19,220 bases of DNA from Anaerolineae bacterium (GTDB lineage: Bacteria; Chloroflexota; Anaerolineae; Promineifilales; Promineifilaceae): contig JANQGC010000353.1 in the NCBI GenBank assembly GCA_028277515.1, positions 1 through 19,220 of the forward strand, given 5' to 3'. The position numbers and the translations under genes were made by a program. The notes beneath the pieces were generated by a model. The model was not told where the DNA came from and did not search any database. It was given only the letters and a program-made list of their open reading frames with translations. Positions 7,259-19,220 of the stretch are shown in pieces (the first letter of the stretch is position 1; each line of letters starts with the position of its first letter).

Positions 7259-7289
7259 AATTTGATGTCCAGGGTAATTGTTAGTCAAT
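7259..7289. repeat. Direct repeat, left copy, at peptidase 3' end
   Basis: AATTTGATG, a short variable stretch, then AGGGTAATTGTTAGTCAAT. The same sequence with two substitutions and a 2-3 base gap recurs in the same orientation at 8065-8092. The left copy contains the stop codon of the C39-like peptidase; the right copy lies just ahead of its partner gene. Together they bracket the two-gene cassette. Confidence 0.65.
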
Positions 7290-7739
7290 TGTAACCGTAG
7301 CATAATAATAATCGCGTTCCAGCCAGGCTAATTCAAAATCGCCTTGAGGTACTGAAATTGGACTATTATCAAAATAAGGATCATTGATAAGAATTTGGTC
7401 ATTCTCATAACCAACAACGACCAAGGCATGGTCCGTGGCATATTGCCAATACGGCAAATCCCCTGTGCGAACAAAAACTATCACAGGTTGTCCATTATCA
7501 ATAAGGCTTTTCAATCCAGCCAAATCGGTTATGCGATAGTTCACCATCAGATTTAATTGTTTTAAATTTCGGATATTGGATGCGGGAGCGCCAAACGATG
7601 CGACGTTTAATATTTTTAAGAGTTGGTGGTATTCAATCGTGTCGTTTATATATTCCAACGTCATGGCGGCACAGGCTGCCAGACAATCACCATCACTTTT
7701 CTGGTTCAGCAGGGGAACGCTTAATAAGATCTTGGGCAC
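7281..7739 (-). CDS. C39-like cysteine peptidase (papain-like fold)
   Basis: This 152-residue protein has the complete C39 catalytic set. Gln13 (oxyanion) lies six residues before Cys19 in DGDCLAACAAM, His104 is in ATDHALVVVGY, and Asp120 follows in LINDPYF. Such domains cleave double-glycine leader peptides when fused to ABC exporters. Stand-alone C39-like proteins such as this one, with no transporter and no transmembrane helix, are of unknown substrate. The start is GTG, with AAGGAG about ten bases upstream inside the previous gene, and the gene overlaps that gene by 47 bases. Tight overlap implies translational coupling and a joint function with the 118-residue partner. No signal peptide is seen. 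Confidence 0.82.
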   Translation of the reverse strand: MPKILLSVPLLNQKSDGDCLAACAAMTLEYINDTIEYHQLLKILNVASFGAPASNIRNLKQLNLMVNYRITDLAGLKSLIDNGQPVIVFVRTGDLPYWQYATDHALVVVGYENDQILINDPYFDNSPISVPQGDFELAWLERDYYYATVTID

Positions 7740-8049
7740 ACGCTTCCATCTCCTTCATTTGTTGCGGTGAAAAATGAACCTGCCCTGTTTCCACATCTAC
7801 ATCAATGGTGCCCACCTCACCCACATCTCCAACTGAAGTTAAGGACAAAATGACCGGAATACGCCAGCAAATACGGTCACCAACAACCAATGCCGGTTCA
7901 GCGGCATGCATCATATAACTAATTTCACTCAGAACAAGGTTATTAACCTTTTGCCGGGCGGCATAGGCCGATATGTTGACATCGGCCGTTACCTTTATAT
8001 CAACCTCTATCCGGCCTGTCTTTGGTATCGACTCTACATTAGCGTTCAT
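7693..8049 (-). CDS. Unknown protein paired with the C39-like peptidase
   Basis: This 118-residue protein, taking the ATG at 8049, has GAGGTG immediately upstream at good spacing; the in-frame GTG at 8055 is part of that Shine-Dalgarno. The middle reads ISAYAARQKVNNLVL and then WRIPVILSLTSVGDVGEVG, followed by TIDVDVETGQV, a strand pattern resembling PepSY/propeptide-like modules (structure inferred only). The C-terminus is charged and helical (SPQQMKEMEACAQDLIK). Its 3' end overlaps the peptidase start by 47 bases. Plausible roles are inhibitor, substrate or chaperone of the peptidase. No family name is recognised. Confidence 0.65.
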   Translation of the reverse strand: MNANVESIPKTGRIEVDIKVTADVNISAYAARQKVNNLVLSEISYMMHAAEPALVVGDRICWRIPVILSLTSVGDVGEVGTIDVDVETGQVHFSPQQMKEMEACAQDLIKRSPAEPEK

Positions 8050-8434
8050 ACGCACCTCGTCTTAAATTTGATGAAGGGTGATCGTTAGTCAATATTATAG
8101 CGGATGACGTCAATAGCTTGCCAGAGGCCAGTGAGCAGTCGGACAGTAAAGCAGTGATCCGGCCCAAAACATAGGCTGCTAGATCGGGTTCTCGCAGGTC
8201 ATATGCTGCCAGCAGGGCTTGAATATCATCATTAAATGGAGCTAGTATTCGCTCAAAAGCAGCGGCAGTCAGGCAAACTCCCGGCGGCACAGGAAAGTCT
8301 TCAGCCAGCAAAAGGGACAAAACGGCCGCCTTGTCGCTAATAAAGCGTGCTCGGTTCGTAGTAACGGCTTCAGCCGTCGAAGCGCTAAAGCGCTCACTAC
8401 CAACAGATTCGAGAAGAAATACAAACTTTTCCAT
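8039..8434 (-). pseudogene. N-terminal fragment of a PEP synthase/PPDK-like protein
   Basis: The frame begins MEKFVFLLESVGSERF and contains KAAVLSLLLAEDFPVPPGVCLT followed by AAAFERIL. This is the N-terminal signature of the PEP/pyruvate-binding ATP-grasp domain (GGKGA-x-L...AGFPVPPGF...T-x-AF). The canonical GGKGA is eroded to SDKAAV. The protein stops after ~131 residues, whereas the domain alone needs ~300 and a full enzyme ~800. The last ~15 residues are read out of the direct repeat at 8065-8092, so the gene was cut exactly where the peptidase cassette begins. The frame overlaps the next gene's start by 11 bases. Confidence 0.65.
8065..8092. repeat. Direct repeat, right copy, between pseudogene and peptidase cassette
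   Basis: AATTTGATG, then AAGGGTGATCGTTAGTCAAT. It matches 7259-7289 in the same orientation. It forms the false 3' end of the PEP-synthase-like fragment and lies 15 bases ahead of the partner gene's start. The shared TTGACTAAC, read on the minus strand, looks like the end of a peptidase-type gene. Confidence 0.65.
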
Positions 8435-8456
8435 TTCTTCACACGGCAATCGTAAC

Positions 8457-8516: not shown

Positions 8517-8945
8517 CTAACGTTGATCTAAAATCTTACGAAAATGAGCCAAGTCAACGATCTTGACCGGCCCGGCGCTTCCTAGAACAAACAAATCCTT
8601 GTCCCCGGAAATTAAATAATCAGCCTGGCCGACGACCGCATAGGCAATCAGATAATCATCTTTGGGATCTCTGGTAATTGCCGGAATGGGGGTGCTAATT
8701 AACGGGATATCTTGGCCTAACCCTTTGAGTAAGGCTAAAAACCTTTCTAACCTTTCTTCTGTGATAACTTGCAGCAGATAAGATTTCAGTTTGACGGTGT
8801 TCTCGATTTCGTCAAGCAGTGCTTCCATCACCAATAAGATGACTCTGCCCTCTATAACCGCGTCAAATAACAACTCAATGAAGCTTTCTGGTTGAGGTTT
8901 AAGCAGGTAGGCGATAAACAAGTTGGTGTCGGCAAGGACGCGCAT
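8517..8945 (-). CDS. PIN-domain toxin (VapC-like, PIN_3 type)
   Basis: This 142-residue protein has the PIN nuclease acidic residues: D6 (VLADTNLF), E46 (LLDEIEN), D96/D97 (DPKDDYLIAYA) and D115 (ISGDKDL). The DPKDD...ADYLISGDKDL block is typical of the PIN_3/COG1569 group of putative RNases. It starts three bases after the antitoxin stop, with the Shine-Dalgarno inside the antitoxin's last codons. It should cleave RNA when free of the antitoxin. Length is normal and nothing looks broken. Confidence 0.9.
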   Translation of the reverse strand: MRVLADTNLFIAYLLKPQPESFIELLFDAVIEGRVILLVMEALLDEIENTVKLKSYLLQVITEERLERFLALLKGLGQDIPLISTPIPAITRDPKDDYLIAYAVVGQADYLISGDKDLFVLGSAGPVKIVDLAHFRKILDQR

Positions 8946-8948
8946 CCT

Positions 8949-9275
8949 TTAGTCCTGAAATGTAACTTTGCCTTTTCTAACCAGATTGTCAATGGCTTCC
9001 CTGCTGATCTGATCGGCCGTTTCCAAAGCCTGATCCTCGCTCATCTCCTCATTACGTGCCCCGATTTCCTGGGCGATCTTTTTTAGTTCTTGCACAGCTT
9101 GTGCACGGCGACGCCGTTCTCTGGCTTCCTGAAGCAGTGCATAATCATCTATAGGGATCATCACCACTTCAGCATGACCCCTGTTTTGGATGACCACATC
9201 GTTTTGATTTCTCTTGATCCAGGCCAAGAATGAACTGAGATTCTGCCTGGTTTCGGTCACTGATGCCGTTTTCAT
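8949..9275 (-). CDS. Phd/YefM-type antitoxin (VapB-like)
   Basis: This 108-residue protein has a Phd/YefM N-terminal DNA-binding fold (TETRQNLSSFLAWIK...VVIQNRGHAEVVMIPIDDYALL), then an arginine-rich helix (EARERRRRAQAV) and a C-terminal toxin-binding tail (EDQALETADQISREAID). The antitoxin precedes the toxin, the usual order, with a three-base gap. A near-consensus promoter and a small palindrome lie upstream, fitting autoregulation. Its 3' end is duplicated in decayed form at 10183-10296. Confidence 0.9.
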   Translation of the reverse strand: MKTASVTETRQNLSSFLAWIKRNQNDVVIQNRGHAEVVMIPIDDYALLQEARERRRRAQAVQELKKIAQEIGARNEEMSEDQALETADQISREAIDNLVRKGKVTFQD

Positions 9276-9443: not shown

Positions 9444-9490
9444 CTGACAACGTGGTCTTTTTTAGTGTAGAATAATGCGTGACTATACTA
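9444..9490 (+). promoter_or_regulatory. Promoter and inverted-repeat operator of the BrnTA-type pair
   Basis: CTGACA (9444-9449), an 18-base spacer and TAGAAT (9468-9473), each one base from consensus. TAGTGTAG (9463-9470) is mirrored by CTATACTA (9483-9490) with one mismatch, so an inverted repeat straddles the -10 and start site, as expected for ribbon-helix-helix autorepression. Confidence 0.65.
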
Positions 9491-9523
9491 AATGTTTTTA
9501 TTGACTTGGTAAGAGGTTTAAAA

Positions 9524-9823
9524 TTGCAGTACCAATTTGACTGGGATCCTGCAAAAGAAGCAATCAATATCCAGAAGCATCAGGTCAACTTCCGGCGAGC
9601 GGCGACAATTTTTCGTGATCCAAATCAACTTTCTTTATTTGATGATGAACATAGCGAAAAAGAGGATCGTTGGATTACACTTGGTATTGATGTTGGAGGT
9701 GTGCTCCGAGTGGTCATTCATACTTTTGAAGTGATTAATGAAAATCGGTATGAAATTCGCATAATCTCTGCACGAAAAGCAACTTTAGCCGAAATTAAAC
9801 AATATCAAGAAGGGTTAAAATGA
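9524..9823 (+). CDS. brnT: BrnT-family toxin
   Basis: This 99-residue protein matches BrnT, a RelE-like ribonuclease toxin, throughout: YQFDWDPAKEAINIQKHQVNF, then FRDP, DDEHSEKEDRW, the central strand LRVVIHTFE, and IRIISARKAT near the end. I chose the TTG at 9524 because AGAGG lies 7 bases upstream and the family starts just before FxWD; a GTG at 9479 in the same frame would add 15 unusual residues. It overlaps the downstream antitoxin by ATGA. Toxin-first order is the norm for BrnTA. Confidence 0.88.
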   Translation: MQYQFDWDPAKEAINIQKHQVNFRRAATIFRDPNQLSLFDDEHSEKEDRWITLGIDVGGVLRVVIHTFEVINENRYEIRIISARKATLAEIKQYQEGLK

Positions 9824-12484: not shown

Positions 12485-13900
12485 ATGCGAGAGAAGCCAT
12501 TATATCTATATTTAGCTGTATTCAACGGCATGGATCGAGCGGAAAACGCCTTAGAACAGATGCCGAAACGGGATCGAAATGTCGTTTCGGCCGTGGTCAT
12601 GATCAAGGACGCCGCCGAACAAGTACGCTTCAAGGATGTCGGCCTGACCCCGGCGAGAGGCGCTGTCACCGGCACCGTTATCGGTGGGGTCGTTGGTCTT
12701 TTAACCGGCGGGGCGGGACTGGTGGCATTTGGTGCCCTGGGTGGCTATTTTGGCCACCGCTCGGCGGTCAAAAAACAAGCTAACCAGGTAATCCCTGAAC
12801 AGTTAAAGAAAATTGCAGGCAGTATTGGCCCCGAATCATCGGCCATCATCGCCGTGACCAAACAAGAGCCTGATCCCACCGTTATGCAAACGATTGAAGC
12901 CTTAGGCGGGAAGATATTCTCAACCGAGCTAATACCACAAGCGGATAGCGACGGCCAAAAACAAGCGGACCAGACCTATGAGACTATCCTGGAGTCGTTG
13001 GCCGCCACCACAGGTGGTGAGGTCAAACGCAGCGTGCCCTATCCGCGCATTCATATTGTCATCAATCCTGTTTCCGGCAAAGACGAGCCGGTGGTCAATG
13101 TACTCAACCGGGTGTTTGGAAAATACGGCATCGACTGGACGATCAGCATCACCAAGAAATATGGCGATGCGGCCGAATTTGCCCGGCAGGCGGCCGAAGA
13201 CGGCTTCGACCTGGTTGCCGGTTACGGTGGAGACGGCACGCAGCATGAAATCGCCAACGCCTTAATGGGCACAGACGTGATGATGGGCGTGCTTCCTGGG
13301 GGAACGGGCAACGGTTTCGCCAGCGAATTAGGCATCCCCACTACCTTGCAACCTGCTGTGGAACTGCTCTGCACCAGCTATAACAAGCGCAAGATCGATA
13401 TCGCCCAGGTGGGTGATTCCTACTTCATCCAGCGCCTGTTCACAGGCATCGAACCGGAAGAACAGACCAGCCGGGCAGATAAAGATAAATATGGCACCTT
13501 CGCCTACCTGATCCGCGACATCAACCGCCTTCGCAACATTCAAGACATCCCCTATAAATTAACGATCGACGGGCAAGAAGTCGAAGTCATGGGCCATAAA
13601 TGCTATGTAGTCAACTCGGCCAGGGCAGGCACAGGTTTGTCGATCAGCACCCAATTTTCCGTGGATGACGGCATGCTTGATGTGTTTATGCTCAGCCGGG
13701 ACGCTAAAAGCGCCGGCGCAGCCCTGGAACGCTTCTTCAATTTGAAGACGAGCTCAGCGGGCATGTATTATTGGCGCGGGCAGGAGATCACGATTGAGAC
13801 GGAGGTGGACCAACCGGTTTGGACCGACGGCGAATATACGGGCCGCACGCCGGTCTCAATGAAGGTGCTGCCCGGCGGCCTGACCGTGGCCGTGCCCTAG
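12485..13900 (+). CDS. DUF1269 domain fused to a diacylglycerol kinase-like lipid kinase
   Basis: This is a 471-residue two-domain protein. Residues 1-150 resemble DUF1269 proteins: a short alpha/beta start (YLYLAVFNGMDRAENAL), then a glycine-zipper hydrophobic hairpin (VTGTVIGGVVGLLTGGAG, 61-78, to GYFG at 90). From about 187 it is a DAGK_cat/YegS/DgkB-like kinase: NPVSGK (194-199), GYGGDGT (246-252), LPGGTGNGFA (270-279), DGMLDV (395-400) and DGE (448-450) near the end. Such enzymes phosphorylate lipid hydroxyls with ATP. Its place after gpsA suggests phosphatidate/phospholipid work, with the N-terminal domain perhaps tethering it to membrane. The ATG follows the last tandem repeat unit by ten bases. 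Confidence 0.88.
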   Translation: MREKPLYLYLAVFNGMDRAENALEQMPKRDRNVVSAVVMIKDAAEQVRFKDVGLTPARGAVTGTVIGGVVGLLTGGAGLVAFGALGGYFGHRSAVKKQANQVIPEQLKKIAGSIGPESSAIIAVTKQEPDPTVMQTIEALGGKIFSTELIPQADSDGQKQADQTYETILESLAATTGGEVKRSVPYPRIHIVINPVSGKDEPVVNVLNRVFGKYGIDWTISITKKYGDAAEFARQAAEDGFDLVAGYGGDGTQHEIANALMGTDVMMGVLPGGTGNGFASELGIPTTLQPAVELLCTSYNKRKIDIAQVGDSYFIQRLFTGIEPEEQTSRADKDKYGTFAYLIRDINRLRNIQDIPYKLTIDGQEVEVMGHKCYVVNSARAGTGLSISTQFSVDDGMLDVFMLSRDAKSAGAALERFFNLKTSSAGMYYWRGQEITIETEVDQPVWTDGEYTGRTPVSMKVLPGGLTVAVP

Positions 13901-14005: not shown

Positions 14006-17000
14006 TCAGGGATATGTCAGCGTCCCCGGCACATTCATGTACACCTGGTAACCCTGTCCAGGTTGGAGATCGCCAATCTGATTGATACTAAACTCAGGCC
14101 AGTAGATTAATCCTTCGTTGTTTTTGGCCAGCAACAGATCACTTCCCAGAGAATTGAATGCCTGGTCTATGGGAACGGCCGTGTCGCGCCAGTAAGCAGC
14201 GATATTCCAGCCCATATTTAGCGAGATCGAATCCGCTGGGTTAAACGGCAAGCCGTCGATAGGTGCGTTGAAGGACTGCGACGCATAACATTGGTAACCC
14301 TGCTGCGCATCCCAGGTGCCAATAGAGTCAATATCCAAAGATGGCCAGTAAACTTGCCCCATATTGTTCTTGCATAACAGCAAGTCATGGCGCTCAGGCA
14401 AGGGGAAAATATCGTCCATGTCCGTCAGCGTTGGATTCAGATAGCTGGAAACCATGTTCCAACCACTATCAAGGGCAACCTCTTGATGCTCCAGGCCGCT
14501 GACAATTTGCAGTGTGATGTCAACATTCAGCGGGCTGCCGGCATCGTTGGAGGAGATGTTCAAAGTGTCGGTATAAAAGCCGGCACTCAACAGACCGACA
14601 TCAGCGAACAGGTAGACATCTTGCGCGCCACCGGGATCGATCGCAAACGAGGTGGGGGAGACGGTCAACCAGCTTTCACTATTGGTGATGTCCGTAACGT
14701 TTAAGAGGGCGCTGCCCGTATTTTGCAGGTTCAGGATGCGGCTGTTGTCACCGGCTTGCAGGGCAGCCAGCAATGCTTGATAAGCGTTAAGCCGGCCGTG
14801 GCCGAAGTCGTTGTCCCAGCCATTTGGCCCCAGGTCATCGGCCGTGCCCGTTAAAATATTGCGTACTTGGTCGTGGGTCAGCGCCGGTGCATGATTTAAG
14901 ATCAACGCCGCCACCCCGGCCACATGCGGGCTGGCCATTGAGGTTCCGCTAAAATAACCATAATCATTGCCGTTTAAGGTGGACATGATCAAAGATCCTG
15001 GGGCAACCACATCCAGGCCAGGACCATAATTGCTGAAGCTGGACCGCTGGTCGGCCGAATTGACTGAACCGACGGCAATCACCTCCGCATAGGCCGCCGG
15101 ATAATCAAGGGCGGATACGTTGTCATTGCCGGCCGCGGCAACAAGCACCACATTATTGGCATGGGCATTGGCCACAGCGGAAGCGATCAGGCTATCAAAG
15201 GGACCGCCGATGCTCATATTGATCACCTGCGCCCCCTCGCTCGTTGCCCAGTTGATACCGTCGGCAATATCATCACTCAGGCCACTCCCCGCTTCATTCA
15301 GGGAGCGCACTGAAAGAAGCTCAAACGCGCCCATGCCGGCAATGCCCGTGCTGTTGTTGATCGCTGCCCCAAGCGTGCCGGCGACATGTGTGCCGTGATT
15401 TTCAAATGTAACATCCGGTGCCGGATCGCTGTCATTATCCACAAAATCATACCCCTTATTAGTGCCAAAATTTGGCGCCAGATCGGGATGAGTATAGTCA
15501 ACGCCCGAATCAATGATCGCTACCTTTGTTGTCGCCGTGCCCGCTCCCAGACTCCAGGCCAGCGGCATCTGGATGCGCGGCCAGCCCCAAAGATAACTGT
15601 AAAGGGGATCATTCGTCGGTGGGGTCAGGGTATAGTAGTAATGACGTGGCTCGATACCGGTAACGGGTAGAGACGCAAAGTTGTCCAGCGATGGTTCCTG
15701 GCCTTCCGGCAGTTCAACGACGATATATGGGTCATGCTCAAAACTGTTGATTAATTGTGGAGTGGCGCGGTTTTTGACCACCTTGCCGTCAAATTCTTGC
15801 TGCACAAAGGCGGACATGGCCTGCACATCGGCCGCCGAACGCCCCGGCTTCAGACGGATAATGTACTGATTGGGCACAATGCCCTCATCAGAAGAGGCGG
15901 AATGGCCGGCGGGTAGCTTTGGCGTTTCGGGAGCAGCCGGCAGCGGTTTCGCCTGGGTAAAGCTGCTTGTTTCCGGTAAAGCGAAATTCACCGTTGTCCC
16001 CGAAGGCTGGATTTGGGGCATCGTGCCGTCGCTGGTCAGGACGAAGTCAACGCCGGTTAAGTTCGCGCCATTGCTGATATCAAGCTCGGTAAAATCAAAA
16101 TTATAACCGCTCTTGCTGGCCAGGATGATTTGCTCACCAGCATGCAGGTTAGTCAACGTGTATTGACCCAAGGCATTAGTCGTCGTCGCTTTATATTCGA
16201 CTTCGACCACGGCATCGGCCACGGGGTTCACGCCGTCGGTGACCGTTCCGCTGATTTGTGTCGGCGAGCTTGGGCCATTGATAAAACTACTGGCACTGGA
16301 CCAGGGTCCGTCACCCAGGGAATTGCCGGCCTGCACCCGCCACCAATACGTTTCGCCGACATCCGGAAAGCCGGATATGAGAAATCCAATGACATTTCCC
16401 AGTTCGATGTCAAAAATCAGATTGGTAAAACTGTTGTCATAGCTAAGTTGAAAGTGATAATCGGTGGCCCGCGCCGTCTGCTGCCACTGGAATAGGACAT
16501 TCAGGCCAGGCACATTCGTACCATCCCCCGGCGCTGTTAAAATCGTAATCGGTGGTACGGCGCTTGGCCCGTTCGTGAATTCTCTGCTGTCTGACCAGTT
16601 ACTCCAGCCCAAAGAATTCCAGCCGCGCACCCGCCAGTAAAAAATGGTCCCATCATCCGGCAATGATGAGAGATTCAGGCCAATAAAAGGACCGCCCAAC
16701 TGTTGATCAAGAAAAGGGGCATTAAACGCGCTTTCGATGGAAACTTGAAGCTGGATATCGGCCGCTCGCGGGGCGTTCCATTGCAAAGTCACGCTTGTTC
16801 CAGGAATATCAGCCATATCTGCGGGACTGATCAGCGTAGGGGTCGCCGGTGCGGCGCTGGGACCATTGGTCACCGACCATTCAGCCGACCAATCACCCCA
16901 ACCCATGCCATTCTCTGCCCGCACGCGCCACCAATAGGTCAGTCCGTTATCGGCAAGAGGGGAGATGTTCACACTATTAAAAACACCATTCAATTCCTGG

Positions 17001-17410
17001 TCAAATACCAGGTTGCTAAATCCGCTGTCGGTGGCAATCTGTAATTGGTAATCGGTCGCCCCACTGACTAGATTCCATTGGAAATTGATGGAAGTGCCGG
17101 GAACATTGCCGCCATCGGCCGGACTGACCAGGGTTGGCGCATCTGGGACGTCGCTTGGTGCCAGAGGCGCGACCTGCTCAACCGCCCCGATTGTCTCCTT
17201 GGCGGAGATGATCAAGGGTTGGGAATCGGCCGTTGCCGGGATCGGCTGCCCGTCCAATTGAGGAATGTCCGGCCCATGACCAGGCAAAACAGGCACAAGC
17301 GGTGCCGGGACCCGGCCCTGCCCTTCAACTGGGGCAAAAACGAAGAAGAATAGGAGAATGGCACCAATGCCGGAAACAAATTGGAATAAGCGGGGATTTT
17401 TATTGTTCAT
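14006..17410 (-). CDS. Secreted subtilisin-like (S8) serine protease, multidomain
   Basis: This is a 1134-residue protein. A signal peptide covers about 1-30. Three fibronectin-III-like modules start near 91, 190 and 288; each opens with a PTLVSPADG-type phrase and closes with NGPS. A carboxypeptidase-regulatory/Cna-B-like domain spans 383-458. An I9-type propeptide lies at about 512-590. The S8 domain has the full triad: D634 (IIDSGVD), H672 (NHGTHVAGT) and S824 (GTSMASPHV), with oxyanion N762 (AAGNDN). A BACON/Ig-like domain spans 890-972, and two C-terminal ~75-residue GWN/YWP/GYQ modules span 978-1134. The protease should be active outside the cell. Only a weak Shine-Dalgarno is present. 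The last two domains are shared with its neighbours. Confidence 0.93.
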   Translation of the reverse strand: MNNKNPRLFQFVSGIGAILLFFFVFAPVEGQGRVPAPLVPVLPGHGPDIPQLDGQPIPATADSQPLIISAKETIGAVEQVAPLAPSDVPDAPTLVSPADGGNVPGTSINFQWNLVSGATDYQLQIATDSGFSNLVFDQELNGVFNSVNISPLADNGLTYWWRVRAENGMGWGDWSAEWSVTNGPSAAPATPTLISPADMADIPGTSVTLQWNAPRAADIQLQVSIESAFNAPFLDQQLGGPFIGLNLSSLPDDGTIFYWRVRGWNSLGWSNWSDSREFTNGPSAVPPITILTAPGDGTNVPGLNVLFQWQQTARATDYHFQLSYDNSFTNLIFDIELGNVIGFLISGFPDVGETYWWRVQAGNSLGDGPWSSASSFINGPSSPTQISGTVTDGVNPVADAVVEVEYKATTTNALGQYTLTNLHAGEQIILASKSGYNFDFTELDISNGANLTGVDFVLTSDGTMPQIQPSGTTVNFALPETSSFTQAKPLPAAPETPKLPAGHSASSDEGIVPNQYIIRLKPGRSAADVQAMSAFVQQEFDGKVVKNRATPQLINSFEHDPYIVVELPEGQEPSLDNFASLPVTGIEPRHYYYTLTPPTNDPLYSYLWGWPRIQMPLAWSLGAGTATTKVAIIDSGVDYTHPDLAPNFGTNKGYDFVDNDSDPAPDVTFENHGTHVAGTLGAAINNSTGIAGMGAFELLSVRSLNEAGSGLSDDIADGINWATSEGAQVINMSIGGPFDSLIASAVANAHANNVVLVAAAGNDNVSALDYPAAYAEVIAVGSVNSADQRSSFSNYGPGLDVVAPGSLIMSTLNGNDYGYFSGTSMASPHVAGVAALILNHAPALTHDQVRNILTGTADDLGPNGWDNDFGHGRLNAYQALLAALQAGDNSRILNLQNTGSALLNVTDITNSESWLTVSPTSFAIDPGGAQDVYLFADVGLLSAGFYTDTLNISSNDAGSPLNVDITLQIVSGLEHQEVALDSGWNMVSSYLNPTLTDMDDIFPLPERHDLLLCKNNMGQVYWPSLDIDSIGTWDAQQGYQCYASQSFNAPIDGLPFNPADSISLNMGWNIAAYWRDTAVPIDQAFNSLGSDLLLAKNNEGLIYWPEFSINQIGDLQPGQGYQVYMNVPGTLTYP

Positions 17411-17419
17411 AATCTTATC

Positions 17420-17425
17420 ATTATA
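17420..17425 (-). promoter_or_regulatory. Candidate -10 box of the protease gene, possibly leaderless
   Basis: A perfect TATAAT on the minus strand ends ten bases before the ATG at 17410, so transcription would start about three bases ahead of the start codon. No good -35 is found at 16-18 bases and only GATAAG precedes the ATG. This would suit a leaderless or short-leader mRNA, but the box alone could be chance in AT-rich DNA. Confidence 0.35.
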
Positions 17426-17570
17426 CTATATAACTAGCCGTTGAACTATTAAAAATGGATAGATTAAGTAGGATTACAAGGACAGTCACCGACCAAAATT
17501 AGAAAGAATTCATGGCCAGACATTTGTAATTTTAACACATAGGAAATGAAATGGGGATAAATAAAAAGGT

Positions 17571-17605
17571 AAAGATGCCACCTTTCGGAAAGATGGCATC
17601 TTTTT
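17571..17605. terminator. Rho-independent terminator, bidirectional
   Basis: AAAGATGCCA (17571-17580) and TGGCATCTTT (17594-17603) form a perfect 10-bp stem. The loop itself can pair CTTTC with GAAAG. T-runs follow on both strands (TTTTT at 17601-17605; on the minus strand ACCTTTTTA). It lies about 30 bases after the stop of the minus-strand gene at 17636 and separates it from the protease gene. Confidence 0.88.
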
Positions 17606-17635
17606 GGTCGTAGTTGCCGCTTCAGCGGTCCGGCG

Positions 17636-18922
17636 CTATGAATCCGGATAAGTCAGTGTGCCGCCTACTTCCATATAGAGCTGGTAGCCTTGACCGGGCT
17701 GCATATTGCCGATCTGGTTAACGTTGAAATCAGGCCAGTAAACCCGGCCGTCCCCATCCTTGGCCAAAAGAAGCTGGTTATTGATACTGCCTAATGCCTG
17801 CTCCACAGGCGTGGAATCCGCCAACAAATATGCAATAGTATGCCAGCCGGCCGGCAGCGTCAAGGGCGTTTGTCCCACATCGACCGCTGTTCCATTAATC
17901 TCCAGCGTGGCCGGCCCTGCCATAAACACCTGGTAACCATTCCGCAGGTTCCAATCGCCGATTTCGTTCAGCTCCAAGGAGGGCCAATATAGCTGGCCAT
18001 TGCCATCTTTCATGATCACCATGTCCTGCACAACACCGGCCATCAAGGATTCCACATCACTGTTCCAGGGATCGACATAACTGGAAATCATATTCCAGCC
18101 TGTGTTTAGGAAAATATTATGGGTTACAAAATTTTGCGGCAGCAGATCAACGGACAACCGCAAAAAGCTATGATCGCCCCAACTACTGACCGAAATAAAA
18201 TAGGTCTGCCCACCACTCACGGCGACATCCAGAGCGGAATAAAGATCATCTCCGACATCATCATTGCAGGCCACTTCGCTGAGCGAAGCGCCATCCTGCT
18301 GCCACACGGCGAGAACCGTGTCATACTCACTACCTAAAGTGGTGGCCCTGAGCACTTGATTTTGGCTGGACGTGATTTTATACCAGACCGAGCCATCTTT
18401 GGGTCCACAAGAGGGAAACGGATCGGAGCCATCGAGCGTTGCCGCCTGCACATTTTGCTCATCAAGAAAGGGTGTCTCGCTGATCACCGTGGCGGCGGTC
18501 CGGTTATCATTGGCCGGCGCCTGGGGCAAGGATAGAGCGGCATTTATGTTGTTCACGCTGCCGCCCGCATTCAGCACAATATTTGTGGCGCTGAGCAGGC
18601 CGGGCGCGTCGTCGTAATACTCCCTTTGATAAACACCGTTTTCCAGGTCATGGAAAAGCAGGCGGTAGGTTCCGGCGGGCAGATTGCTGATCTGATACTG
18701 TCCATTGCTATCGGTGAAACCGAAATCGACGAACTCCCAGGCACTACCGTTAAGGATGTAAGCATCGACGTCAATATCTTGCAGCGGCGCACCACCGGCT
18801 TCGGCCGTGACCATGCCCGAAATGGTACCGCTGCCGCCCTGAGCCGTGACCCCGGTAGTGGCAACCCCTAATATTAAAATGAACATAACGGAAAAAATTT
18901 GTAAGGCTTTTTTTATCGGCAC
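17636..18922 (-). CDS. Secreted protein with Cna-B-like, PPC-like and C-terminal double modules
   Basis: This is a 428-residue protein. The signal peptide is about 1-27 (hydrophobic IFSVMFILILGVATTGVTAQ). A Cna-B/carboxypeptidase-regulatory domain spans 33-130 (GTISGMVTAEAGGAPLQDID ... LPAGTYRLLF). A domain at 138-260 opens NDNRTAATVI and has SVWYKI, DTVLAVWQ, ACNDDVGDD and YFISVSSW, the layout of bacterial pre-peptidase (PPC-like) beta domains. Two C-terminal modules (about 267-345 and 352-428) match the end of the protease at 14006. No catalytic residues are seen, so the role is probably binding or structural on the cell surface. The start is GTG with GAAGG six bases upstream. Confidence 0.85.
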   Translation of the reverse strand: MPIKKALQIFSVMFILILGVATTGVTAQGGSGTISGMVTAEAGGAPLQDIDVDAYILNGSAWEFVDFGFTDSNGQYQISNLPAGTYRLLFHDLENGVYQREYYDDAPGLLSATNIVLNAGGSVNNINAALSLPQAPANDNRTAATVISETPFLDEQNVQAATLDGSDPFPSCGPKDGSVWYKITSSQNQVLRATTLGSEYDTVLAVWQQDGASLSEVACNDDVGDDLYSALDVAVSGGQTYFISVSSWGDHSFLRLSVDLLPQNFVTHNIFLNTGWNMISSYVDPWNSDVESLMAGVVQDMVIMKDGNGQLYWPSLELNEIGDWNLRNGYQVFMAGPATLEINGTAVDVGQTPLTLPAGWHTIAYLLADSTPVEQALGSINNQLLLAKDGDGRVYWPDFNVNQIGNMQPGQGYQLYMEVGGTLTYPDS

Positions 18923-19024
18923 AGCAACCTTCTTTTTTGCGAGAGAAATCCAATTATTGGAAATAGAATGCTTCTTTGTTGGCCAATTTTGTAAGAAATT
19001 GGATTTCGACCATTAAATTCATCA

Positions 19025-19056
19025 CCAGGCAGGCTGGGAACCTTCTACCTGCCTGG
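19025..19056. terminator. Candidate terminator hairpin after the partial gene
   Basis: CCAGGCAGG (19025-19033) pairs exactly with CCTGCCTGG (19048-19056) around a 14-base loop, about 65 bases downstream of the minus-strand stop at 19122. A strong stem, but followed by TGATGAATTT rather than a clean T-run, so it could instead be an mRNA 3' stabilizer. Confidence 0.5.
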
Positions 19057-19121
19057 CACCATTTATATCACGAATAGCCACTTTTGGCGCGAAAAAATTT
19101 TGAATCGTTAAGCTATGCTCG

Positions 19122-19220
19122 TCAATTCTGCGGATAGGAAAAGGTACACGGTTCCGTCAAATAGAGTTGGTAGCCCTGTCCCGGCTGCATTTCCCCAATT
19201 TGGTTGAGTCCGAATTCGGG
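19122..19220 (-). CDS. 3' end of a third protein with the shared C-terminal module (partial)
   Basis: The window edge cuts this gene. The last 32 residues read PEFGLNQIGEMQPGQGYQLY, then LTEPCTFSYPQN, stop. They align with the end of the second module in both upstream proteins (PEFSINQIGDLQPGQGYQVY and PDFNVNQIGNMQPGQGYQLY, then a short strand and TYP). This makes three consecutive minus-strand genes with the same terminal module. What precedes it is outside the window. Confidence 0.88.
   Translation of the reverse strand, partial: PEFGLNQIGEMQPGQGYQLYLTEPCTFSYPQN

Follow-up and report, generated by a model that had tools for sequence, protein, structure and literature searches.

The type IX secretion system (T9SS) type A domain (PF18962/TIGR04183, Por_Secre_tail) is among the described systems closest to the element analyzed here, a two-module domain (the pair) that ends neighboring secreted proteins in a 19,220-nt stretch of DNA from an Anaerolineae bacterium (contig JANQGC010000353.1; the window). 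Like the pair, the type A domain is C-terminal and common to many unrelated secreted proteins of one genome, and it is found in the same genomes as the pair (19 of 20). However, its model, with 72 positions, has no sequence match with the pair. Proteins that carry both have the type A domain after the pair, and pairs are also seen behind signal-like segments and in genomes in which SprA was not found. FISUMP (Fib_succ_major, PF09603), a surface-protein domain present in the same proteins as the pair, belongs to another sequence family and is a neighbor, not a relative; to our knowledge, it has no known function. Finally, the T9SS type C sorting domain (cl41395) is reported to be a C-terminal region of ~100 residues that is neither type A nor type B and is needed for efficient secretion of a reporter, with Flavobacterium proteins named (PMC10202324). 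Compared by that description only, the type C domain and the pair are alike in being C-terminal and neither type A nor type B.

Our alignment of 157 pairs shows that the pair is one inherited unit and that its two lobes carry the same residues at a set of equivalent positions. The alignment comprises 150 non-redundant pairs from 185 open reading frames (ORFs), each spanning at least 140 residues, plus seven database proteins; 180 of the 185 ORFs span that length before duplicate removal, and P0006, P0010 and P0011 were left out. In a tree of 65 first and 65 second modules, built from few columns, the module label changes 4 times, against 43.6 with shuffled labels. Across the whole alignment, covariation is strongest in four column pairs, each of which joins equivalent positions of the two modules; their kappa values are 0.80 (38/121), 0.73 (46/129), 0.64 (66/149) and 0.59 (51/134). 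Four others have kappa values of 0.50 (36/119), 0.48 (44/127), 0.41 (53/136) and 0.37 (64/147). At 46/129 the two residues are identical in 123 of the 157 pairs, against 31.6 expected, including W/W in 52, I/I in 29, L/L in 20, Y/Y in 9 and R/R in 9. Columns 37 and 65 are variable yet unmatched (kappa 0.00 and -0.01), and the columns with the best matching show a tendency to alternate along strands (36 and 38, 44 and 46, 51 and 53, 64 and 66).

The same eight columns stand out in 53 held-out pairs, taken from loci of KSB1 (also represented in the first set), Desulfobacterota and the phylum of genome G009: median kappa is 0.34, against 0.03 for the other 64 columns (p 5e-6). Because neither columns nor paralogs are independent, p-values here are guides only. 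When partners are shuffled within genomes, a z of 3.5-6.3 remains at five of the eight columns. Gene conversion is argued against by codon usage, since the lobes share codons at a rate near that expected from paralogs: of 686 cases with matched face residues, 372 use the same codon in both lobes, where comparison with the other paralogs in the genome predicts 356, and in the columns outside 43-53 the figures are 1193 of 2595 observed and 1134 expected, with no excess of codon identity particular to the matched columns or to block 43-53.

The choice of residue follows lineage. The face columns, as we call the eight, are more genome-specific than others (median 0.49 versus 0.20), and 46/129 is W/W in 24 of 26 pairs of genome G008 and 11 of 12 of G006, I/I in 13 of 16 of G003 and Y/Y in 7 of 10 of G005, with no common type in G011. 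Columns 36, 44, 46 and 51 of the face are hydrophobic and 38, 53, 64 and 66 polar, and the alternate columns 37, 45, 63 and 65 are nearly always hydrophobic or Tyr.

We propose that the pair works at the surface as an accessory domain with two equivalent faces rather than as an export tag, a tentative reading to which we give a probability of roughly 0.4. Together the two modules are inherited as a single domain, whose two lobes are similar and probably beta-rich and which stands at or near the C-terminus of many otherwise unrelated secreted proteins exported by Sec. Each lobe carries a set of strand positions with the same residue in both lobes. We infer that these positions are an exposed face; the two equal faces would recognize, twice, one component common to the pair-bearing proteins of the organism, with a surface glycan or an envelope or matrix protein as candidates, and such recognition may hold enzymes and adhesins at the surface. 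We do not read the pair as an export tag because another export tag can follow it, because a signal peptide directly precedes it in some proteins, and because it occurs where SprA was not found. Recognition of a shared component is slightly favored over contact between the lobes for two reasons: the lobes keep identical, not complementary, residues, and the residue type is common to paralogs.

Several observations weigh against this model. The alternating pattern has exceptions: shuffling within genomes also reveals matching at columns 35, 43 and 49 (z 4.2, 3.8 and 4.0) and, to a lesser degree, at 48 and 52 (z 2.5 and 2.8), so that 43-53 looks like one matched block. Kappa is 0.30-0.36 at columns 45, 49 and 52 (0.30 at 45), and the held-out set also matches at columns 52 and 54 (0.45 and 0.50). 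At face columns 36, 38 and 64, coupling does not exceed what genome identity accounts for (z 1.6, 0.0 and -0.9), and the same is true of 9/93 (kappa 0.70, z -0.5). The test of genome specificity is partly circular, as matching was the criterion by which the face was selected, and paralogs have a common descent. Lobes of the same protein have a median likeness of 44%, against 32% for module 1s and 39% for module 2s across proteins, and because of this greater overall likeness some general homogenizing may have taken place. Finally, the lobes are predicted to sit in a fixed arrangement (pTM 0.87), so that the matched positions may instead be where the lobes touch.

This last possibility is the strongest alternative, and we consider it nearly as likely as recognition of a shared component. 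The matched positions would then be a pseudo-two-fold lobe contact, and the pair a rigid, obligate intramolecular dimer that has no ligand and separates the passenger from the C-terminus as a spacer or protective cap. Such packing of equivalent residues is seen in two-domain crystallins. Pairing is indeed obligate: none of the 185 ORFs has two pairs and 5 have only part of one, in agreement with a preliminary description of the window that had proposed exactly two modules, and the long arrays that it named as contrary evidence were not seen. An AlphaFold2 model of the pair of the second window protein has a mean predicted local distance difference test score (pLDDT) of 95.4 and a predicted template modeling score (pTM) of 0.87, which suggests fixed relative placement, though module 2 alone is also predicted well (pLDDT 94.5, pTM 0.82). 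The mixture of hydrophobic and polar face columns, with alternates that are nearly always hydrophobic or Tyr, and the coupling within the protein at five of eight columns are likewise consistent with contact. However, matching at the eight positions is by identity and extends to K/K, R/R and Q/Q, whereas a packed contact would also permit complementary pairs, and only positions on the axis would touch their own equivalents. Lobe contact also leaves the sharing of residues among most paralogs of a genome unexplained, apart from common descent.

In either case, the matching of the lobes provides a concrete handle of about eight positions per lobe. If the faces bind a common partner, as the accessory-domain model holds, they would represent a new way for environmental bacteria to keep enzymes at the surface; if the lobes touch, the pair would be a clean case of internal symmetry maintained by coevolution. 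Both outcomes caution against taking a shared C-terminal domain for a sorting signal. A bolder form of the accessory-domain model, which we hold to be improbable, is a targeting or retention code that crosses phyla. Here the two matched faces would read one lineage-specific envelope partner, the residue set K/R-W/I/L/Y/R-K/Y/F would be a ‘species address’ common to most pair proteins of a genome, and in T9SS bacteria the terminal form would deliver proteins that have no classical sorting domain.

A second and unlikely alternative treats the pair as a C-terminal signal for sorting or attachment. It would be either a tag compatible with T9SS but different from types A, B and C or, in lineages that lack T9SS, some other tag coupled to export. 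The position of the pair bears directly on this idea. Tail length after the pair has a two-peaked distribution: 46 of the 157 pairs lie within 11 residues of the protein end, 92 are tailed, 12 take other positions and 7 are truncated at contig ends. The tailed class has 195-270 residues after the pair and includes non-sorting tails; the exception, P0008, was labeled by hand and has 354. The preliminary description had called the domain strictly terminal. Terminal placement is real, as the 46 pairs show, and it is kept in an M14 peptidase of a Flavobacteriales genome (Pfam E 4e-80) and four orthologs that are 64-89% identical, all of which end 0-2 residues after the pair; a copy in a sixth genome is broken into pieces. 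The strictness has to be given up. Like a type A domain, the pair is the last domain in the window proteins, but 92 of the 157 pairs have a longer tail, and some begin at residue 31-56, behind a signal-like segment. The 53 pair-to-end stretches come from those of the 69 genome loci whose pair is followed by 30 residues or more; of these stretches, 36 match Por_Secre_tail, 7 FISUMP and 3 GH10, and 15 match CHU_C, counted over the whole stretch. Four copies (L059, L061, L063 and L068) of genome G017, which has 139 pair copies, stand directly behind a signal-like segment.

Several features of the terminal copies would suit a sorting signal. Terminal-pair proteins of T9SS genomes have signal-like N-termini and cargo-like domains; the 39 passengers counted include SprB repeats (3), a CHU_C-associated Ig domain (3), M14 (3) and endonuclease I (2). 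A tail domain lies downstream in another frame in only 2 of 56 terminal ORF entries, which are the same gene in two loci. However, many copies in T9SS genomes already precede a sorting domain, and others stand directly behind signal-like segments. The two position classes also resemble each other closely. The same columns are conserved in both (rho 0.93), and the columns that differ most, 46 and 129 (W versus I), track lineage. The Tyr of the final YP is present in 44 of 46 terminal, 86 of 92 tailed and all 12 other pairs, and its Pro in 40 of 46, 71 of 92 and 6 of 12; because the Tyr is kept in every class, it is no end signal. Position changes 26 times on a tree with many weak branches, and the strongly supported branches force at least 7 changes. 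Sister copies of both kinds occur (L127/L139 and L096/L154), and the 466-residue G004 homolog of a 241-residue terminal-pair protein from G005 continues for 222 residues past the pair.

The share of terminal copies differs among genomes. Among copies chosen from the best-scoring matches, and thus not at random, 8 of 10 are terminal in G005, 9 of 20 in G008, 5 of 10 in G006, 1 of 10 in G011 and 0 of 10 in G003. Only 1 of 27 new KSB1 loci is terminal, the others having longer tails, many with sorting-domain-like ends by eye; 2 of 18 loci are terminal in the phylum of G009. In Desulfobacterota, 8 of 11 fetched loci lie no more than 17 residues from the stop, and the copy of G020 itself has a 199-residue tail. 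Of 99 closed long-tailed copies, 78 have an unnamed domain of ~110 residues (NTGENATLVIP..GDEIGVF..AITIWGDD) after the pair and 38 have it before. By eye, this domain is also present in P0003 and P0006, for neither of which a T9SS domain is listed.

Co-occurrence was examined for one partner system, T9SS. A scan of genome contigs with one peptide pattern gave 69 loci, whose titles name Bacteroidota lineages (43), KSB1 (13), Ignavibacteria (3), Raymondbacteria (1), two Desulfobacterota families (2) and plain ‘bacterium’ (7); with this single pattern, no title names Chloroflexota. The 20 genomes of the scanned loci have 1 to 139 copies each, and recognition of the domain, at up to 139 places per genome, would aid the annotation of many secreted proteins now called ‘hypothetical’. 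Type A domains and SprA are present in 19 of these 20, the exception being Desulfobacteraceae genome G020. In a Bacteroidota sample the pair occurs in 31 of 247 genomes, about half of them by weak matches, and SprA in all 31, against 190 of 247 overall (p 2e-4). This favors the sorting-signal idea, although the association is phylogenetically confounded and loses strength when only strong hits are counted and the two seed genomes are set aside (15 of 15, p 0.016). For KSB1 the counts are 27 of 59 genomes with the pair and 59 of 59 with SprA (57 over the cut-off), and in the phylum of G009 the pair is in 9 of 150 genomes. Among Desulfobacterota, 10 of 198 genomes carry the pair; SprA was found in none of the 10, which argues against a T9SS signal, although the control genomes of that scan were also without a match. 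The same SprA model matches in all 59 KSB1 genomes.

A metagenome-assembled genome labeled Desulfobulbaceae (G001) has SprA, T9SS sorting domains, and pair ORF lengths and scores nearly those of Ignavibacteriae genome G005. Its label or bin looks wrong, and for these reasons we did not use it as a T9SS-free case. Other Desulfobacterota loci (L202-L212) have divergent tandem pairs (GWNLISL..SVW..YDP..GYGYWI..WSLP) with the same two-module layout. These are more distant, and several end in W-S/T-L-P at the stop rather than L-T-Y-P; the best profile match in nine genomes other than G020 ranges from E 6e-21 to 8e-6. A larger superfamily of GWN pairs is likely. Pair genes also cluster: the 25 copies of G003 include 6 pairs of copies within 10 kb, against 0.8 expected, and contig C152 of G569 has three copies within 5.6 kb, as in the window. 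Two secreted proteins, P0006 and P0019, end in FLPMLNQ and IYLPLITR, and P0019 is named as Anaerolineae. YLPL ends are, we presume, common in Anaerolineae; in that case, P0006 would be a tailed pair protein from Chloroflexota.

The least probable alternative, a carbohydrate-binding module (CBM) that helps glycoside hydrolases and other enzymes hold extracellular polysaccharide substrates, is disfavored because no CBM family of Pfam matches the pair (the best, CBM64, has E 0.39, below the cut-off), glycoside hydrolases fall outside the 25 commonest families shown for either passenger set, and the key aromatic column turns to Ile, Leu or Arg in whole lineages.

As far as we scanned, the two-module end domain is undescribed and has neither a named family nor a solved relative, in line with the preliminary description. 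Pfam and NCBIfam list nothing in the pair region of either window protein. Eleven aligned pairs matched no Pfam model (best E 0.06, scattered) and nothing in PHROGs; in Pfam these 11 sequences gave no match to PF18962 up to E 10 and none to the type B domain CHU_C (PF13585). In a profile search of solved structures, hits to repeat-protein designs and a few other entries arose only by adding up stretches, and no single stretch passes. One such candidate, the NHL/Pizza beta-propeller, reached a whole-sequence E of 2e-8 to Pizza designs, but this is a sum over repeats, the best single-domain E-value (i-Evalue) shown being 47, and we rejected it. The predicted structure of a ‘putative hemin binding protein’ of an uncultured marine phage (BFVD A0A8D9C8P8) matches the pair with E 7e-4 and TMq 0.55. 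We found no paper on the pair domain in the literature searched, where the string GWNLI was met only in unrelated papers.

In the window itself, the pair occurs in genes that are all on the minus strand. Positions are those of the whole stretch:

14006-17410, minus: secreted subtilase (S8) protein, 1134 residues; open frame, signal-like N-terminus by eye, ends in the module pair
16874-17104, minus: fn3-like stretch of the protease, residues 103-179 (Pfam PF00041, E 8e-6); similar repeats follow, by eye
16034-16258, minus: CarboxypepD_reg-like domain of the protease, residues 385-459 (Pfam PF13620, E 3e-8)
14795-15532, minus: Peptidase S8 domain of the protease, residues 627-872 (Pfam PF00082, E 3e-62)
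14243-14485, minus: module 1 of the protease, residues 976-1056 (approximate border)
14009-14242, minus: module 2 of the protease, residues 1057-1134, ending TLTYP-stop
17571-17603, minus: terminator-like hairpin of 15 pairs between the second protein and the protease
17636-18922, minus: second secreted protein, 428 residues, GTG start; signal-like N-terminus by eye
18653-18826, minus: CarboxypepD_reg-like domain of the second protein, residues 33-90 (Pfam PF13620, E 1e-7)
17882-18121, minus: module 1 of the second protein, residues 268-347 (approximate border)
17639-17881, minus: module 2 of the second protein, residues 348-428, ending TLTYPDS-stop
19122-19220, minus: third gene, last 32 codons and stop, with the end of a module 2 (GYQLYLTEPCTFSYPQN-stop); the remainder lies beyond the window

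By BLASTP, the protease and the second protein are 38% identical over 205 residues (E 2e-41; residues 931-1134 versus 226-426), an alignment that covers the pair of ~160 residues and a lead-in of ~45. A second alignment places module 1 on module 2 (E 4e-10). The family profile finds the pair at residues 976-1134 of the protease and 268-427 of the second protein, with 0 and 1 residues left to the stop. The two proteins have little else in common, although each has a CarboxypepD_reg-like stretch. The coding DNA of the two pairs shows patchy similarity only, and they are therefore not a recent copy.

The preliminary description had three adjacent proteins ending in the same repeat, with five modules. 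This stands for the protease and the 428-residue protein; the third gene contributes its last 32 residues only (PEFGLNQIGEMQPGQGYQLYLTEPCTFSYPQN and the stop, less than half of one module), so the window holds four modules and a fraction of a fifth. The differences it saw between modules are as stated, with IGTW and IGDW in module 1 and QPGQGYQ plus a terminal YP in module 2, and Pfam bears out the protease as S8. The ‘PPC-like’ label of the second protein is unconfirmed, as no PPC domain is listed up to E 1. That the end domain travels as a unit agrees with the variety of passengers that carry it; most of the proteins inspected have a signal peptide by eye. Its reading of the protein ends also stands: the window proteins stop 0 and 2 residues after TLTYP, with no LPXTG-like signal by reading, and PF18962/TIGR04183 give no match in them up to E 1.

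The three pair genes are spaced ~200 bp apart. The hairpin between two of them is weak evidence because terminator-like sites in the region number 8, against 6.5 expected by chance. Among 120 relatives listed of 6607 for the protease part, the best named is an Anaerolineae protein (48% over 61%), and lower down are a Caldilineae protein and many other phyla. Three metabolic proteins compared with plasmids gave 24-36% among the rows listed. Elsewhere in the window, a PIN-domain toxin (8517-8945, minus) adjoins a Phd/YefM antitoxin (8949-9275, minus) as an ordinary type II toxin-antitoxin pair, and a BrnT-type toxin lies at 9479-9823 (plus; E 3e-23). A stand-alone C39-like peptidase domain of 152 residues (7281-7739, minus) sits beside two small ORFs (7693-8449), and a diacylglycerol kinase is encoded behind a fused DUF1269-type N-terminal domain (12485-13900, plus).

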